From contig NZ_JACPOF010000018.1 of the NCBI RefSeq assembly GCF_016185115.1, positions 1-64,000 of the forward strand: a stretch of 64,000 nucleotides of DNA, in the 5' to 3' direction. Shown here piece by piece: positions 19,066-27,674 of the stretch. A program made the position numbers and the translations under genes. Below the pieces are notes generated by a model that ran no database searches, was not told where the DNA came from, and saw only the letters and a list, made by a program, of their open reading frames with translations. Source of the stretch: Polaromonas sp. Lineage in GTDB: Bacteria > Pseudomonadota > Gammaproteobacteria > Burkholderiales > Burkholderiaceae_C. The first letter of the stretch is position 1, and the number at the start of each line of letters is the position of its first letter.

Positions 19066-19142
19066 CGGTGTGTGGCGCAGCCTGGTAGCGCACTTGCATG
19101 GGGTGCAAGGGGTCGAAGGTTCGAATCCTTTCACACCGACCA
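19066..19142 (+). tRNA. tRNA-Pro (anticodon GGG)
   Basis: The 77-base cloverleaf has a seven-base acceptor stem CGGTGTG / CACACCG, an anticodon stem CTTGC / GCAAG with loop ATGGGGT giving anticodon GGG, a T arm with GGTTCGAATCC, and a genome-encoded CCA. GGG reads proline codons CCC and CCU. It is the border of the accessory island that follows; tRNA-Pro genes are common integration sites. Confidence 0.95.
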
Positions 19143-19150
19143 AATGAATC

Positions 19151-19314: not shown

Positions 19315-20865
19315 CTAGTTCTCGACCTTGACGAACCCATCCAGATACAAGAATTCTGAAGGTGAAACATCGTTGAGCATCAAACGGTTGCCATCCCCAT
19401 CATCCGAATTTCCCCAAAAGGCTCGGTAAAGTTTGGAGGTGCATACCTTTCGCAAAAAAGTAAGTGACTTGGCAAGCTTCTTGTTGTGCTCCGAGATGAA
19501 TCCAATGGGCACGCAAAGAAACTCCGATGCAGGAGTCTTCCACTGATACAAGGCTGAGACATGCACCCCAGGTAGCACCAAAATTTCGAATCTTTCGGAC
19601 ATTGCTGGAGATGGTCCCAACAGTACGTCATTGAAACCGGCATTCAATAGAAGGCGCGCCTTGCTCAGTAATGAATCTTTGCGGTCAGATTGACCAGCAT
19701 TACACACTGCGACGATGTCGACAGCCTCACCCCACTCCTTCTCAATGAGCTTAGAGATCGCAAACACTGAATCTTTCAACATCTCAGTACGCCCCCACAG
19801 CTCGCTTTCCGGAATCACCCAGAACATCTCAGTGGGGAACGGTGTTTCTGGCGGTCTGTTGGTTGCAAAGTACCGAAGAGCCTTTTCAAGTCCTTTCAGA
19901 AGCTTTTCAAGGTTTTTTGGCATGTACAAAGCGCCAAGCACTGCCTGACTTTTTCCGGCGTCATATATCTCTCCATTGCCTTCTGCGTGTACCTCTTTCA
20001 CATATGTTGAGAACGAAAACTCAAGGTGTGTTGATGTCTTCAGCGTCATGGTGCCGCCTATTGAAGCACCTGATTGAGTGACTTCGCGCATATACCGCCT
20101 TAGAACAGAGTCATCAAAAACTGCTGGAAATTCTGAAAAAAAGTCCGGATGGGTGACCATTTTCCCAACTCGGTCGGCGGTCAATTGGGTCAATTTTGAT
20201 TTCAGGTCATCTGGCAATAGTGCGTTGTCTTCGAGCTGATACTCAATGTTCCCGTCCATACCAATATAGAAATCCATCGGAACGGGAACGTTAAATCGCT
20301 TTCCCGAGGAAATTTCTTCTATTTTGTATACGCTGAAGGCTCGTTTATTTTCATCATCCTTATCAATCCTTTCAATGTCATTGAAATGTCGATGAAAGGC
20401 TTCAGAAGCATGGTCTAGCGTGTGAGCGGAACCGTTTTCTGCAGTCTCCCAATTCAGGTCAAGGGTGTTGTCCCAATATCCACCATTTCGCGCCCGCTTT
20501 AAAGGTGAAAAAGTCAGCAAATTAAAAATCGGATGGCTTTGGCGCTCTACGATTCTGGTGAATCTGGGAACCCCATCATTTGACGCCACAAATCGAGCCA
20601 GGGCGTATGAGGTAAGGGATAAGACGCCCTCAGAGTCTTGAGCTAATCCTTCGGACTTGAGGACTTCAACAAGTTCATTTGCCTCATGTCCTGCAAGTCC
20701 AAAATATTCCCTGAATACTTCAAATTCGATTTTCTCTGCCAAGTGAATAAGTCGGACTGCAAAGTCCGTCATGACCGGAACTTGTCGCTCGACCGACACG
20801 TGACAGCGCACGTAATATTGCTGCGCAGGTACACCGAGGGCTACCGAGTTAAATTTCTCAAGCAT
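19315..20865 (-). CDS. Unrecognised 516-residue partner of the NERD-kinase-helicase protein
   Basis: I do not recognise this protein. It is largely soluble, with no signal peptide or clear membrane segment. The N-terminal 80 residues (HLAEKIEFEVFREYFGL, then SEGVLSLTSYALARF) could be a winged-helix-like region. The C-terminal third (residues about 380-500) has an alternating alpha/beta look (AVDIVAVCNAG, FEILVLPGVHVSALYQW, EFLCVPIGFISEHNKKLAKSL). A true phospholipase-D HxKxxxxD motif is absent; HNKKLAKS is at best degenerate. The start lies one base after the stop of the upstream giant gene, with AAAGGAGGAG inside that gene's last codons, so the two are tightly coupled. Base composition is more A/T-rich than in the surrounding core. 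In Mokosh-type systems the helicase partner is a PLD nuclease, and this gene occupies that place. Confidence 0.8.
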   Translation of the reverse strand: MLEKFNSVALGVPAQQYYVRCHVSVERQVPVMTDFAVRLIHLAEKIEFEVFREYFGLAGHEANELVEVLKSEGLAQDSEGVLSLTSYALARFVASNDGVPRFTRIVERQSHPIFNLLTFSPLKRARNGGYWDNTLDLNWETAENGSAHTLDHASEAFHRHFNDIERIDKDDENKRAFSVYKIEEISSGKRFNVPVPMDFYIGMDGNIEYQLEDNALLPDDLKSKLTQLTADRVGKMVTHPDFFSEFPAVFDDSVLRRYMREVTQSGASIGGTMTLKTSTHLEFSFSTYVKEVHAEGNGEIYDAGKSQAVLGALYMPKNLEKLLKGLEKALRYFATNRPPETPFPTEMFWVIPESELWGRTEMLKDSVFAISKLIEKEWGEAVDIVAVCNAGQSDRKDSLLSKARLLLNAGFNDVLLGPSPAMSERFEILVLPGVHVSALYQWKTPASEFLCVPIGFISEHNKKLAKSLTFLRKVCTSKLYRAFWGNSDDGDGNRLMLNDVSPSEFLYLDGFVKVEN

Positions 20866-20866
20866 T

Positions 20867-23800
20867 TCAAGCTCCTCCTTTAACCGTACGCGATGGGACG
20901 AGTTGAGCTTGGCCTTCCTTCGCCATCAAAGTCACTTCGTCCAAAACCATTTTCAATGGAGTTCCAGCACGACCAGACCACATCGTCGTTGAACCAACAA
21001 CAATCAATCGGTCCTGGGCTCTGGACAAAGCAACATTAATACGCTCGGGCTCGGACAAGAAACCGACAACACTTGAAGTGTCATTTCTGACCACTGACAC
21101 GATGATGATGCAGTTCTCTTTACCCTGATAACTGTCCACCGTGCCAACTGTAAATAGGTCCCTAAAGTCTCCCGCCCAGTCCGCTTGGTCCAGCTTGCGT
21201 CGAATTAAATCCCTTTGGGCTGCGTACATCGTGATAATTCCAATGGGCGCAGAGTCGGACTCATGCACCTTAATTCGAATCGCTTCAACGAACTCTTTAG
21301 ACAATACGATTTCACGTACAACAGAAACGATGATGTTTGCCTCAACTTCATTGACTAACGCACCATCCCCAGCTGAAAGGTCCTTATGGAAACTCGCTCG
21401 ACCCTGGTCGGCCGTATCAATCCATACGACTTCTTTGGAAAGATAGGGTGGAAGCTTTTCATATGCGGCAATTGGAACGTCCCGATCAACCGTCAGAGCG
21501 CCCTCATAGAAACAATTAGAGACAACTCGGTTTATCGAACTTGCCATCCGATATTGCTTCAAAAGAGTGCGTCCTACTGATCGTCCGTATTCGGATGAAA
21601 ATGCCCTTTGAAAGTTATTCATCTTTCGGAAATTAGCCCTGCCGATTTCCAAGAGTTGTGAAGTTTTTTCTTCCACCGCCCTAGGGTACATCGGGGGCAG
21701 CTGAAGATGGTCACCAACCAAAAGAACTCGCCTACCTGCCTGCATGGCGACAACAAGTTCCATAGGTGACGCTCTGGCGGCTTCGTCAACGATGACCCAG
21801 TCGTATACGTGATCGACGATACCGAGCATGTGCTTCCCGACTCCTACACATGTTCCCGCAACGACTCGAGCAGTACGAGACAAAAATGAAGTGAAATTTG
21901 AATGTGGGCTACGGAGCACATCTGAGAATTCTTTTGAAAGCCAAAATAATCTTTCGAGCTTTTGACACTTTTCTGGACTTGGAGACCCGTTTGACTCCGT
22001 AACCTTGCTCAGCAGTCCTTCCATGACATCACGCAGGTTAGATTCCTCGCTCACCTCGAGGTCAAAACGTGAACGTGCTATTTCACAAAACCGCGTTTTT
22101 AGCCTCGTAATCTGAGCGCTCTGCTTACCTTCATCGATGTCCCTGTTCGAATAATCTGCACTCTGCAAAAACTCAATGCGACCGAGCAGTTGCCCTAGAC
22201 TCATGAACACATCACTTGCTACGTCCACATACAGCCTAGGCAATCCAAGTTGGTATCCAACCGCCCTTATTCGCTCACGTATCTCAGCGTCAAATTTTTC
22301 ACGGTAAATCTGTCGCCTAGCGTCTTCGTGAACTAGCCGCAGCTTCTTTGAAACCATGGTTGCCGAGCCGACCCGCACCATCGACAGAGCTACTTGGTTG
22401 GAAACAGCAAGGTCCGATACCTTTTCAAGTGCATTGTTCACTGCCTCGTGAGACTGGCTTACAAGCAATATGTTTTTGGCAAGTCCTCTGCTTATTGCCA
22501 AATGGACGAAGGACGATATGAATTTTGTCTTTCCTGTTCCAGGCGGTCCCTGTAGCAACGAAATCGGACCGTTCCTGAAACTCTGAAGCAGTGCGTCCCT
22601 TTGTTGGTCATTTAAACCAAGGCTGCCGATTGAATCCAACGCAGTCATTGGAAACTGGTGTGCCTGAATCGAAAGATGAGGGTCAAAGTACTCATGCAGT
22701 TTGAGAATTGAAGCACCACCGCCCAAGACACGTCTCATTGCCGCTACCCGACGTTCTGATGCGCTGGTCTCAAAAGAACCTCTGACGAAGAATGTTTTTC
22801 CCTCAGTTATCTTTAGACGATTGCTTGTCGGAGAAACGCGCAAAACATCCTTACCAATATCGGGTGAAATCAGACCCACACGAAACCAGGTTTCTGTTCC
22901 TTTCATCGGGTCGGTCCCACGTTCGTGCAGCTCAATCTTTTCACCCTCTGAAAAGTCGAGAACCCCCTCCTCAAGCTCGTAGGGCACCAGCCAGGAATAC
23001 TGCTCATGAGGTACTCTTTGAGCGCCTGATCGAACGGTAATTCTTGTAGCGTTCAGTTCGTCAGATTCTGCTAACGCTTGCCAAAGCGCCTTCGCGGAAA
23101 TCAGAGTTTCGCCAGCCTCATGTGCCTCTGAAATGTCGTATGGGTTTTTCGCACCTGACCCAGTAGCGGAGCTCTCTTCTAAGTCATGGTCGTCTCTCGT
23201 AGAGCGGTATCTCTCGTAAAGCAAGTCAACCAATTCATGTGCATCCGACACTGCGGCGTAATCGATCCCAATGTGGGCATGCAGCCGAAATACCGAGCGT
23301 CGTGCGTTGGACACATAGAGGTCATGTCCGATTTCCTTTAGGGAAATATCGATTACCCGTTCGGCTTGCAGGTCGTACTTGATGACAACCTGCTGCCGCA
23401 AGCCTGTCACAAAGAAGATAACGCGTCTCTCCGCTGGAATTGGCTGGACACCAACGGGGAAGATTCCGTTATCACCCTCTAACTCTTGAAATTTCCCCTG
23501 TTCCGACACTGTCCGCCAAATGCTGATTACAAAAGCTGGGTGAATGTCCTTCGGCGGATACAGTTCCTTCTGCAAGGTTTCGGCCAGAAGATCAATTGGA
23601 ATGTTGATTTCCGTGAGTTCTTTTGCTCGACTGGCTTCGGAATGGGTCGTGGGGAACTCCACATCTGATAGGAGCTTAAGTGTCAGTAGTAAGGTTAAGT
23701 AGAGGTCTCTCTGCAAAGCGGACCCCCCCTCCAAGTGCATAGGCAGGTCGTCAACGGTTATGCAGCTATCACCGTCTGCGGTAAGGTCAAGGACATCGAG

Positions 23801-25729
23801 AAGTACCACCTGAACGCTTCCATCGTCCGACTGTGATACCGCAATGTTTGCCTCCTTAATGTCGCCATGCGTAATTCCGATTGCATGAAGACGGCGAACT
23901 GAATTTAGCAGCGACAGCGCCACTTCGGCACGCGCCTTTTTTGAAGAGCATCCCTCTAACCACTTATGGAAATCTTCGCCTGGTGCCCATTTGGTGACCA
24001 ATATCAAGCCAAATGGGCTAACTCCGAAATCTACAACCTCTGGGGCCGCATTGAAGGCTGATTGCCTGAGCGAACGAGCTGTTTGGAGAAACTCCAGAAG
24101 CTTGCGGTTCCGGCTTGGATGTTTGATGTCAAACCTCAAATTGGGCCAACACTTCACCAATACCTTTTCACCTTCCTTCTGAGAGATGTAAACATTCTTG
24201 CCAGGCAATGAAGGAAGGATTTCCGTCGGTAACAATGTCATCGGACTGGCATCCGTCTTGTAGACACTGATGTCTGCTTCTGAAACACTAGCTTCAACAT
24301 CTTTTGCAAGCGCGATGTTCAATGCATCAAGTGCCTCCGATGCAGACTGATAGCGCTTCGCTGGATCCCAATTGATACAAGTCTGGAACCAGATATTCAG
24401 CACCGGAAACCTAATGGCGTTGTTCTCGTCGTAAAGAGGCACACTATCTAGGTCCTCCAGTCTTGTCCCTTCAAAGATTTCAAATGAGAGAACGCCCAGC
24501 AGAAACACGTCACGAGTAAAGGCAGAGTGCGCAACTGACTTATCTGCACTGCCATCGTCTTCCGGCAGGCGGATTGATCCTGTCTCCAGTTCCACTCGAT
24601 TGGCACCGACGGTGCGGCCCTCTGGAATTCTGGCCGCTGCAAAGCTGGACAAAATAATTCGGGAGGGTTCAACCACCCATAAAGTCCTTGTTGTAATGTC
24701 CCTGTGAGCGATACCTAGTGAGTGGAGCTTAGCGAACCTTGCCAGCACGCTTTTCACCAATGCACATCGCTCGCTGTCATCCATCTCAGGCTTTCTGGAG
24801 ATGAGTTCAGCAAGCCGTTCAACCTGCGCCGGTAATCGATAAGCCTCTACAAAGTTCGTTGTCACATCCTCTGGTGTGGCCGATCCAACTGGTTCGAGCA
24901 GGTCATCATGCAGGTCTGGCGCTTCTGTCCGCAGCATTTCGTTTAGACGAAGTTCCCGAAGCCCGATGGATGCGCGTTCAGCCGCCGTCGAGTTACCACC
25001 AGCCAAATTCGAAAAATTCCATTTCCGAATTAGCGCTCTTGATCGCCGATTTTCTCTATGCTCCGCTCTGAATTCCGACCAAATTATTTTTGGATGAATG
25101 TAATCCGCAACGCTGGTGACTTGCAGAAAGCCTTGGTATTCGGTCTTTCGCTCAAGAATTTGTGGATTTGTCAGTGAAAAGAAAAGTTCATATCGGTTTC
25201 GATCCGGCAACGGGTTTGCAGATGGGTATTGCCAGGTTAGTGGTATTTGAGGAAACTTCTTTCGGTATTCATCGACTTTGCCAAGGGTCTTTACAAAATC
25301 CGGCAAATTCATTACGAAACGACGCTCTTCGTCTGGGAAATTCTTAAGTCGACATGTCGGATGGCAGAGAACTACAAGGTGCTCTATGTAGGGGATGGAC
25401 GTATTCTGTAGCTTTGCCCTAAGGCACTCTCCCAACACTTTTACAGTTTGTCTCGTCTTGTCGACAGGGGACCTATTGAATTTCCCCTTGTGCAACCACT
25501 GGCGATTGGAATATTCAATTTCGTCACGCCAGTTCTTCAGTTCCACCAGAAAAATTCTGTTGGTTGCAAAAATTACGAGGTCTAAATCACGGGGATCAGT
25601 TGAACCGCGCTGCAATAGTTGGAATCCGGCAAACCCGAACCAGTTCGCGGGCAACCCTTTTTCAATCTCCCTAAATGCTCCCTGCTCAACATCGAGAACA
25701 CCCTCGGCACATAGATAGGTTATTTTCAT
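20867..25729 (-). CDS. NERD nuclease / tandem kinase-like / superfamily 1 helicase fusion, probable antiphage protein
   Basis: A 1620-residue multidomain protein. Residues about 10-130 form a NERD nuclease-related domain (DLDLVIF, then FLVELKNW near residue 63). Residues about 260-470 are a degenerate kinase fold: HRDITTRT near residue 341 lacks the catalytic-loop Asn, and the DFG position reads SFA. Residues about 500-760 are a second, better preserved kinase: a VLVK lysine near 523, HGDIKEAN near 622 and an LLDVLD metal-site Asp. Residues about 1010-1600 are a COG1112-type superfamily 1 helicase: GPPGTGKT near 1061, VDEAARAS near 1314, GDHLQLPP, QYRM, DSYQGKE and NVALSRAQDR near 1567. A kinase-helicase fusion with a coupled second gene matches the published plan of Mokosh antiphage systems. 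Here a NERD domain is added and no PLD nuclease is seen, so I call it Mokosh-like. The defence role is inferred. Confidence 0.85.
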   Translation of the reverse strand: MKITYLCAEGVLDVEQGAFREIEKGLPANWFGFAGFQLLQRGSTDPRDLDLVIFATNRIFLVELKNWRDEIEYSNRQWLHKGKFNRSPVDKTRQTVKVLGECLRAKLQNTSIPYIEHLVVLCHPTCRLKNFPDEERRFVMNLPDFVKTLGKVDEYRKKFPQIPLTWQYPSANPLPDRNRYELFFSLTNPQILERKTEYQGFLQVTSVADYIHPKIIWSEFRAEHRENRRSRALIRKWNFSNLAGGNSTAAERASIGLRELRLNEMLRTEAPDLHDDLLEPVGSATPEDVTTNFVEAYRLPAQVERLAELISRKPEMDDSERCALVKSVLARFAKLHSLGIAHRDITTRTLWVVEPSRIILSSFAAARIPEGRTVGANRVELETGSIRLPEDDGSADKSVAHSAFTRDVFLLGVLSFEIFEGTRLEDLDSVPLYDENNAIRFPVLNIWFQTCINWDPAKRYQSASEALDALNIALAKDVEASVSEADISVYKTDASPMTLLPTEILPSLPGKNVYISQKEGEKVLVKCWPNLRFDIKHPSRNRKLLEFLQTARSLRQSAFNAAPEVVDFGVSPFGLILVTKWAPGEDFHKWLEGCSSKKARAEVALSLLNSVRRLHAIGITHGDIKEANIAVSQSDDGSVQVVLLDVLDLTADGDSCITVDDLPMHLEGGSALQRDLYLTLLLTLKLLSDVEFPTTHSEASRAKELTEINIPIDLLAETLQKELYPPKDIHPAFVISIWRTVSEQGKFQELEGDNGIFPVGVQPIPAERRVIFFVTGLRQQVVIKYDLQAERVIDISLKEIGHDLYVSNARRSVFRLHAHIGIDYAAVSDAHELVDLLYERYRSTRDDHDLEESSATGSGAKNPYDISEAHEAGETLISAKALWQALAESDELNATRITVRSGAQRVPHEQYSWLVPYELEEGVLDFSEGEKIELHERGTDPMKGTETWFRVGLISPDIGKDVLRVSPTSNRLKITEGKTFFVRGSFETSASERRVAAMRRVLGGGASILKLHEYFDPHLSIQAHQFPMTALDSIGSLGLNDQQRDALLQSFRNGPISLLQGPPGTGKTKFISSFVHLAISRGLAKNILLVSQSHEAVNNALEKVSDLAVSNQVALSMVRVGSATMVSKKLRLVHEDARRQIYREKFDAEIRERIRAVGYQLGLPRLYVDVASDVFMSLGQLLGRIEFLQSADYSNRDIDEGKQSAQITRLKTRFCEIARSRFDLEVSEESNLRDVMEGLLSKVTESNGSPSPEKCQKLERLFWLSKEFSDVLRSPHSNFTSFLSRTARVVAGTCVGVGKHMLGIVDHVYDWVIVDEAARASPMELVVAMQAGRRVLLVGDHLQLPPMYPRAVEEKTSQLLEIGRANFRKMNNFQRAFSSEYGRSVGRTLLKQYRMASSINRVVSNCFYEGALTVDRDVPIAAYEKLPPYLSKEVVWIDTADQGRASFHKDLSAGDGALVNEVEANIIVSVVREIVLSKEFVEAIRIKVHESDSAPIGIITMYAAQRDLIRRKLDQADWAGDFRDLFTVGTVDSYQGKENCIIIVSVVRNDTSSVVGFLSEPERINVALSRAQDRLIVVGSTTMWSGRAGTPLKMVLDEVTLMAKEGQAQLVPSRTVKGGA

Positions 25730-26873: not shown

Positions 26874-27146
26874 ATGAAAACTGCCACGCTGCCTTCACTT
26901 CGTGTTGAACCGCAGCTGCGCGCCGCAGCCGAAAGCGTGCTGCGCGAGGGCGAGACGCTGACCAGCCTGATGGAAACCGCCATGCGCGAGACGATTGCGC
27001 GGCGGCGCACGCAGGGCGAGTTTCTGGCGCGTGGGCTGCGGGCTGCCCAGAACGCCAAACAGACCGGCATTTACCACGCAGCCGAGGCCGTACACGACGA
27101 ACTGGCCCAGCGGCTGGATGCCCGGCGCAAACAGGTGCTGGGTTGA
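26874..27146 (+). CDS. Probable type II antitoxin (YlcI/YnfO-like)
   Basis: A 90-residue protein with MKTATLPSLRVEPQLRAAAE at the N-terminus and SVLREGETLTSLMETAMR, resembling ribbon-helix-helix-type antitoxins that pair with ParE/RelE toxins. It ends in a basic helix (RLDARRKQVLG) and overlaps the toxin gene by four bases (TTGA), the usual antitoxin-first order. It should bind and neutralise the toxin and repress the operon; no operator was identified. The antitoxin family is assigned by pattern and by its partner. Confidence 0.7.
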   Translation: MKTATLPSLRVEPQLRAAAESVLREGETLTSLMETAMRETIARRRTQGEFLARGLRAAQNAKQTGIYHAAEAVHDELAQRLDARRKQVLG

Positions 27147-27463
27147 ATGGGCAGTTTGAAGTCCGTTACACCGAAGCGGCGCGTGAAGATTTGCTGCGCC
27201 TTTTCGACTTTTTGCTGGAGCGGGCGCAAACCATTGAAGACTTTGACGCTGCGCAGGCCGCCATCGACGCGCTACGCACCGCAGTGCAAAGCCACCTGAG
27301 CCGTACCCCGTTCATTTACCGCAAGGCGGGCGACAGCGCATTTGTGCGCGAGCTGATCATTCCGTTCGGCAACGCAGGCTATGTGGCGTTGTTTGAGATT
27401 GCGGGCGCTGACACCGTCAACATACTGGCGGTGCGGCACCAGTTGGAAGACGATTACTACTGA
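27143..27463 (+). CDS. ParE/RelE-family toxin
   Basis: A 106-residue protein with the RelE/ParE fold pattern: VRYTEAAREDLLRLFDFL (residues about 6-23), then AVQSHLSRTPFIYRK and the C-terminal strands YVALFEIAGADTVNILAVRHQ. ParE members poison gyrase; RelE members cleave mRNA on the ribosome. The sequence alone does not decide, but the E...H-ending type leans to ParE-like. It starts at TTG 27143 within the antitoxin stop. Immediately downstream, on the other strand, is a broken Nudix gene. Confidence 0.8.
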   Translation: MNGQFEVRYTEAAREDLLRLFDFLLERAQTIEDFDAAQAAIDALRTAVQSHLSRTPFIYRKAGDSAFVRELIIPFGNAGYVALFEIAGADTVNILAVRHQLEDDYY

Positions 27464-27464
27464 G

Positions 27465-27674
27465 TCAAAAAGCAAAAGCAGGGCTGTCAAAACCAACGGA
27501 GGGCCCATCCGTCCGCGGCGCTGTTCCAGATGCCTTCACGATGCAAAAGGCGATCTCGTCGCAGGGATTTTCTGCCTCGGTGAAGAGGCTGGCTTCAATA
27601 GTTTCGTGGCCGGGGTCGAATTCTGTGCTGAGCAACTGGGCGCTGCAGAAGAGGTGGACCTGGCCGGGGCACAT
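27465..27674 (-). pseudogene. Fragment of a Nudix hydrolase gene, paralogue of the intact copy at 43.5-44.0 kb
   Basis: The minus strand encodes GQVHLFCSAQLLSTEFDPGH, ETIEASLFTEAENP and DEIAFCIVK. This is nearly the same as the intact Nudix protein at 43457-44011 (GQVHIFYRAQLLSTEFDPGH...). The Nudix box itself and the N-terminus are missing, and similarity stops after IVK. It is a partial duplicate or a leftover of a second gene, cut by the toxin-antitoxin module. Confidence 0.7.

Follow-up and report, generated by a model that had tools for sequence, protein, structure and literature searches.

The window carries a Mokosh type I operon by both gene profiles

The window, by which we mean the whole 64,000-nucleotide stretch of Polaromonas sp. 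DNA analysed here, holds two adjacent genes on the minus strand, mkoA and mkoB, behind a tRNA gene. The features considered below are the following.

19066..19142, plus strand: tRNA-Pro(ggg), called by ARAGORN, which borders a variable stretch
19315..20865, minus strand: mkoB, 516 aa (PADLOC PDLC03923 MkoB, 359 bits)
19366..19968, minus strand: C-terminal PLD-like domain of MkoB, residues about 300-500 (Foldseek on the predicted fold)
19492..19545, minus strand: HKD-motif site of MkoB, residues 441-458, degenerate (alignment of 87 MkoB rows)
20551..20793, minus strand: winged helix-turn-helix of MkoB, residues about 25-105
20867..25729, minus strand: mkoA, 1620 aa, with NERD, pseudokinase, kinase and superfamily 1 (SF1) helicase (PADLOC PDLC03921 MkoA; complete frame)
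20987..22615, minus strand: SF1 (UPF1-like) helicase of MkoA, residues 1039-1581 (Pfam AAA_11 and AAA_12)
22724..23536, minus strand: beta-rich part of MkoA, between its second kinase and the helicase, residues about 732-1002 (secondary structure, predicted model)
23561..24196, minus strand: second kinase domain (residues about 512-723), with intact catalytic residues (Pfam Pkinase)
24290..25153, minus strand: pseudokinase, the first kinase domain of MkoA, residues about 193-480
25364..25687, minus strand: NERD domain, residues 15-122 (Pfam PF08378, 45.3 bits)

The first gene matched the PADLOC profile PDLC03921 (MkoA) as a whole protein, at 1451 bits and over profile positions 1-1604 of 1607. 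Its partner lies directly beside it, the first base of mkoB being 1 nt past the mkoA stop, and the junction sequence contains a ribosome-binding-site-like AAAGGAGG within the mkoA 3′ end, ahead of mkoB. Pfam placed NERD at MkoA residues 15-122, Pkinase at 572-635, AAA_11 at 1039-1347 and AAA_12 at 1373-1581, which are the profiles that an earlier note on this DNA had proposed to search for, and returned zero matches for the 516 aa of MkoB. The claim of that note that one frame combines a NERD domain, a degenerate kinase, an intact kinase and an SF1 helicase was borne out by Pfam and by a 139-row MkoA alignment. An SF1 (COG1112-type) helicase, as expected of Mokosh type I, is recognized in MkoA through AAA_11/AAA_12, and a serine/threonine-type kinase domain is predicted from the Pkinase match together with the intact residues.

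By both gene profiles, the mkoA-mkoB pair is therefore assigned as a Mokosh type I operon. Since both genes match named PADLOC Mokosh profiles (PDLC03921 and PDLC03923), a new defence system was ruled out, and the pair is more than merely Mokosh-like. The PDLC03921 profile itself spans the NERD, both kinase regions and the helicase, and a NERD plus a PLD-like domain is tabulated for Mokosh type I in the accessible text of a 2023 review citing Millman et al. 2022 (PMC10952713), so that the NERD in Mokosh type I is already known. Of the earlier description 'Mokosh-like but different', the kinship with Mokosh thus holds but the difference does not; likewise, the suggested new branch corresponds to a real clade of 15 long MkoA proteins (support 95/97, see below), but a catalogued one, and the alternative of a new system falls away. 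In each of the 24 distinct full-length loci that extend far enough, the window counted (L001 and L031 are one locus, and L043 ends 18 bases past its frame), MkoA was followed by MkoB, as it was in 5/5 further long MkoA frames.

Compared with the reference Mokosh type I (PDLC03921 plus PDLC03923), the window pair shows near-full-length matches and the same helicase, kinase, NERD and gene order. It differs in that the PLD-like domain of the window MkoB has a degenerate HKD motif, as in most relatives examined, and in having a pseudokinase as its first kinase-like domain, a point that we did not find stated for Mokosh in the open-licence literature. Mokosh type II (MkoC, PDLC03924) was also considered and rejected: its helicase and that of MkoA fall in one broad family (113 bits, the best stretch being 1455-1598 within the helicase), but it is described as one gene with the PLD behind the helicase (PMC11672841, accessible part), whereas the window has two genes with a NERD and a kinase pair.

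The MkoA front end recurs in PglW and some DndF and, in part, in MAD6

The PD-(D/E)xK residues of the NERD domain are Asp50, Glu63 and Lys65 in the window MkoA. Across the 139-row alignment, the Asp, the Glu/Asp and the Lys were present in 134 of the 134 rows covering the site (5/139 being gapped), and the sole change within the triad was Glu63 to Asp in 4 rows. The first kinase lacks the Lys of HRDxK in 137 covering rows, the Asn in 137 and the Asp of DFG in 138. Conversely, the second kinase, the limits of which were taken from predicted secondary structure, carries Lys526 in 137/139 rows, Asp623 and Asn628 in 138/139 each, and Asp645 in 139/139. The PADLOC PD-T4-6 kinase profiles also match the MkoA kinase. 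These alignment results uphold the pseudokinase/kinase pair proposed earlier, the first kinase being without catalytic residues and the second nearly always intact. The order NERD, pseudokinase, kinase was not found stated for MkoA or Mokosh in the accessible text of the open-licence PubMed Central literature.

A NERD with an inactive and an active kinase has been published for PglW and some DndF (accessible parts of PMC12839542 and PMC10853773). PglW of BREX type 2 and the DndF subset have the three domains in the same order as MkoA, but carry other domains in the C-terminal half where MkoA has its helicase (PMC12839542). Four proteins from the genus and family of the window (L016, L017, L018 and L020) are PglW by NCBIfam, at 1249 to 1438 bits against a cut-off of 990, and all four align to the NERD, the inactive kinase and the active kinase of MkoA. 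As a whole protein, the window MkoA reached 75 bits against the same NCBIfam cut-off of 990, and PglW was accordingly rejected as its identity, only the front end being common. In Streptomyces PglW, Lys677 of the second kinase is reported to be needed for phage resistance, and PglW autophosphorylates (PMC4365076, accessible part). A further likeness was found to MAD6 of MADS (NF047741), of which residues 11-471 align to MkoA 11-484, that is, the NERD plus the first kinase, at 142 bits; however, the MAD6 model has 612 positions, with no room for a helicase, and since the NCBIfam cut-off is 460 bits, MAD6 was also rejected as a whole-protein assignment.

The predicted PLD-like domain of MkoB has a degenerate HKD motif

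MkoB is predicted, from its modelled fold, to consist of a winged helix and a PLD-like domain, the residue range of the latter being inferred from secondary structure. The top Foldseek match was NucT 6ehi (E 8e-4, probability 1.00, rmsd 7.2), which was the single match at E < 0.001, with other PLDs also listed; the TM score was 0.53 by target length and 0.20 by query length, and the match is loose. Using hhalign, the MkoB C-terminal domain gave a probability of 0.6% against 19 PLD segments and of 0.5% against four NERD-less MkoB proteins. Winged-helix matches took up the whole VIA-align list of MkoB, which was hence uninformative on the PLD part. Because the fold match is loose, Pfam is empty and the two profile comparisons were negative, the HKD site is placed by motif spacing.

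At this site, MkoB residues 441-448 read QWKTPASE against HxKxxxxD, with the His replaced by Gln and the Asp by Glu, while Lys443 and Gly455 of the motif are retained. By this alignment, the window MkoB does not carry a complete HKD catalytic motif, which is an expectation for a PLD nuclease rather than a demand of the MkoB profile, and which most relatives examined lack. Among the 87 aligned MkoB rows, H, K and D were all kept in 6, the His was replaced in 70 (one of them a gap) and the Lys was gone in 42. HxKxxxxD was complete in 8/90 MkoB relatives of at least 450 aa and degenerate in the other 82, or complete in 9/97 without the length limit, the 7 shorter relatives left out of the 90 including P0216, which has HxKxxxxD; the 8/90 suggest that PLD activity may persist in some relatives. 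At the site itself, HxKxxxxD occurred in 0/24 distinct fetched pairs, the window counted, and in 0/5 later ones (0/29 together). For L135, a script matched HxKxxxxD in MkoB, but away from the HKD site. The loci and the database rows overlap, some being the identical protein, with the JS666 pair present in both.

NERD-less Mokosh type I pairs lie outside the clade of the long MkoA proteins

Seven pairs with a kinase had a NERD-less MkoA of 1069-1165 aa (L005, L045, L046, L057, L069, L071 and L075), and Pfam NERD was absent from all seven MkoA proteins. PADLOC matched every one of them to PDLC03920 (MkoA, 461 to 793 bits) and PDLC03922 (MkoB, 104 to 245 bits). Like the window pair, these NERD-less Mokosh I pairs have an MkoA with kinase and helicase, followed by MkoB, but their MkoA lacks the NERD, their HKD is complete and their helicases fall outside the NERD-bearing clade. 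In their MkoB proteins, PLDc_2 was detected near the Pfam cut-off of 27, at 19 to 34 bits, and HxKxxxxD was complete in 7/7. Four of these (L057, L069, L071 and L075) were located by HKD-motif search and were thus left out of the count, in which three of four NERD-less pairs not chosen by motif carried HxKxxxxD (L005, L045 and L046). This count is mildly biased, as these three were relisted by their MkoA frame after having first been noticed via a profile derived from the four MkoB proteins of the motif search. The fourth, L132, was located by a PADLOC profile; it is NERD-less and without HKD, indicating that HKD loss does not need a NERD.

A Fisher test of HKD against NERD (p 3e-6) was set aside, because four of its eight NERD-less rows were motif-chosen and the rows are related; its 90 database MkoB rows had been entered without looking at their MkoA partners. 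A NERD-less MkoA-like frame at L052 was dropped, its downstream gene being without an MkoB match, and L176, which runs into a contig end, and L183 (G990, frame of 1126 aa) stand outside the NERD-less counts. When 398 genomes of the phylum were searched with the NERD-less MkoA alignment at 1e-60, 8 genomes matched, among them one with a NERD-less frame, which is cut off, and six with long frames, the window's own genome counted. The two MkoB families are alike N-terminally, with the window MkoB matching PDLC03922 6-236 at 27 bits and the L046 MkoB matching PDLC03923 30-207 at 45 bits. L005 / L184 (G004), a Mokosh I pair that has a complete HKD motif but no NERD, comes from the same genus as the window, and thus both Mokosh I branches occur in this genus.

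The best solved chains for the MkoA helicase by sequence were NAM7/UPF1, SMUBP-2 and DNA2, and its matches to the NCBIfam IGHMBP2-type helicases were below cut-off. We built a tree of 51 helicase domains, comprising 15 long MkoA, 8 NERD-less MkoA and 28 of 58 other helicases, in which the window MkoA is represented by its closest relative, L001. The 15 long MkoA rows formed one clade (support 95/97, 96% of bootstrap trees), and the NERD-less MkoA helicases fell in at least two places outside it, several of the branches being long. Since the NERD-less rows branch apart from the NERD-bearing clade, the tree gives no support for a single step in which a NERD took over from a PLD. This is the helicase phylogeny that the earlier note had proposed: the long MkoA proteins do form one clade, but as catalogued MkoA and not as a lineage separate from Mokosh.

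Genomic setting and spread

The best named MkoA relative, with 88% identity across the full length, is encoded on plasmid 1 of Polaromonas sp. JS666 (L031), a plasmid typed as conjugative, where pglX and pglZ of a BREX-1 cluster flank mkoA-mkoB; the defence setting expected in the earlier note is thereby supported. In total, 126/370 matching plasmid records hold at least 80% of MkoA, and the MkoB profile matches 4/399 genomes of the order, the window's own genome counted. Annotated defence-type neighbours were read, without a control, at 4/10 plasmid loci: BREX-1 and TrlF at JS666; a methyltransferase, MmeI and a helicase in Providencia; TrlF on P. aeruginosa pWTJH17; and a cytosine methyltransferase and DUF3883 in Rhizobium. 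TrlF, MmeI, DUF3883 and the methyltransferases are here counted as defence-type. At the other six loci, defence-type neighbours are not clear, one having Fic, MazF and another NERD-type gene.

Beside the window operon, homology to genus-mates stops at 19142-19143 in 13/19 loci (one of them at a contig end) and extends 3 to 51 bases beyond 19142 in the other 6/19. The counterpart of window 27523-27666 lies about 130 bases after the tRNA in L162 and about 1.2-1.3 kb after it in L161 and L163, the other 16 of the 19 loci not reaching that segment. From this spacing and the end of homology at the tRNA, the part from 19143 to about 27522 appears to be a variable stretch behind tRNA-Pro. Besides the tRNA, the flank frames tested were a MerR-type gene and a ParE-like gene; the ParE-like toxin frame lies at 26874-27463 on the plus strand (PF05016, 38 bits), with a short frame directly before it in the antitoxin place.

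Several further copies were observed in rearranged surroundings. On the Providencia plasmid (L033), the pair has restriction-modification genes on one side and, on the other, a Tn3/integron stretch that carries resistance genes. In the P. aeruginosa plasmids H25, H27, H28 and H29, the mkoA match is split in two, and an ISPpu29-family insertion is annotated in the gap. L004 (G119) is an mkoA remnant, in which the NERD part and the last helicase part are left and the middle is gone.

A proposed mechanism and its alternatives

The mechanism of Mokosh appears unsettled, as the accessible parts of the published descriptions diverge: it is tabulated among systems of unknown mechanism in a 2026 review (PMC12926258), classed as nucleic-acid degrading (PMC10855318), and described as degrading viral transcripts (PMC11291487) and as a PLD-nuclease system (PMC11672841). 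Since MkoB has no intact catalytic motif in its predicted PLD-like domain, the NERD is the likely nuclease, and we lean modestly towards the NERD of MkoA being the nuclease that acts on phage infection in this operon. In the NERD-bearing branch, judging from the sequences, the NERD would thus likely be the effector and MkoB a non-catalytic adaptor. The nuclease role given to the NERD in the earlier note is in this way supported by the unvaried triad and the degenerate MkoB motif, and we still infer it.

In the sequence of events that we propose, the UPF1-like helicase and the winged-helix MkoB would bind to and scan some nucleic-acid feature that the invader produces, and the binding signal would be relayed via the pseudokinase to the active kinase. 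The latter may then phosphorylate MkoA itself or MkoB, and this phosphorylation would free the NERD to cut nearby DNA or RNA, whether the invader's or the cell's own. The invariant NERD would accordingly be the part that cuts, the helicase and the winged-helix/PLD-like MkoB the parts that recognize, and the dead/live kinase pair the switch. A fuller version, which we regard as plausible though just short of probable, is that NERD-branch Mokosh I is not a PLD-nuclease system at all and combines a NERD nuclease, a portable pseudokinase/kinase cassette also found in PglW, DndF and MAD6, a helicase sensor, and MkoB as a nucleic-acid-binding adaptor with a dead PLD. The NERD could also bind without cutting.

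Two other effectors were weighed against the NERD. The PLD-like domain of MkoB might be a nuclease through an unusual active site, with the NERD binding nucleic acid only. Type I Mokosh is indeed described as a helicase plus a PLD nuclease (PMC11672841) and tabulated with a PLD-like domain (PMC10952713), each in the accessible text, and the retained Lys443 and Gly455 together with the complete HxKxxxxD in 8/90 relatives would suit such a site; however, the nucleophile His is Gln in the window MkoB and is not His in 70/87 rows, the Lys is missing in 42/87, and it is the NERD triad that is unvaried in all covering rows, save for Glu to Asp in 4. We therefore consider a PLD effector unlikely. Similarly unlikely, in our estimation, is the kinase as the effector, in which phage sensing would lead to phosphorylation of host or phage proteins and to a growth stop, with the NERD docking to DNA or serving as a backup. 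Nearly all rows have an intact second kinase, there are MkoA proteins with a single kinase and no NERD, the PD-T4-6 kinase profiles match the MkoA kinase, and S/T/Y kinases and NERD have been proposed as co-effectors in PglW and DndF (PMC12839542 and PMC10853773, accessible parts), but a mere docking role would not predict invariant NERD residues.

Two remaining explanations concern the operon as a whole. That the mkoA-mkoB pair is a BREX accessory, acquired here without the remainder, accords with the position of the closest named copy (JS666) inside a BREX-1 cluster and with the front end common to PglW of BREX type 2. Nine further plasmid loci, however, have no annotated BREX gene in the stretch shown (the gene table being incomplete), and the window flanks gave tRNA-Pro, the MerR-type gene and the ParE-like gene, which makes this reading very improbable. 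A housekeeping UPF1-like helicase protein without a defence role, for which the resemblance of the helicase core to NAM7/UPF1 and SMUBP-2 could be cited, was rejected on its patchiness and the MkoA-MkoB pairing, and its probability is close to negligible: the MkoB profile occurs in 4/399 genomes of the order (own genome counted), the gene is plasmid-borne (126 plasmid records with at least 80% of MkoA), and its place behind the tRNA gene is variable.

Implications for Mokosh and related systems

What makes this locus of interest is that a Mokosh type I operon has a degenerate PLD motif and a kinase pair of the PglW type. If the nuclease of this branch is the NERD and not the PLD, tests that target the PLD site would come out blank. 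The common front end ties Mokosh to BREX type 2, DndF and MADS, and as one front end is common to them, a switch mechanism solved in one of these systems could be tried in the others.
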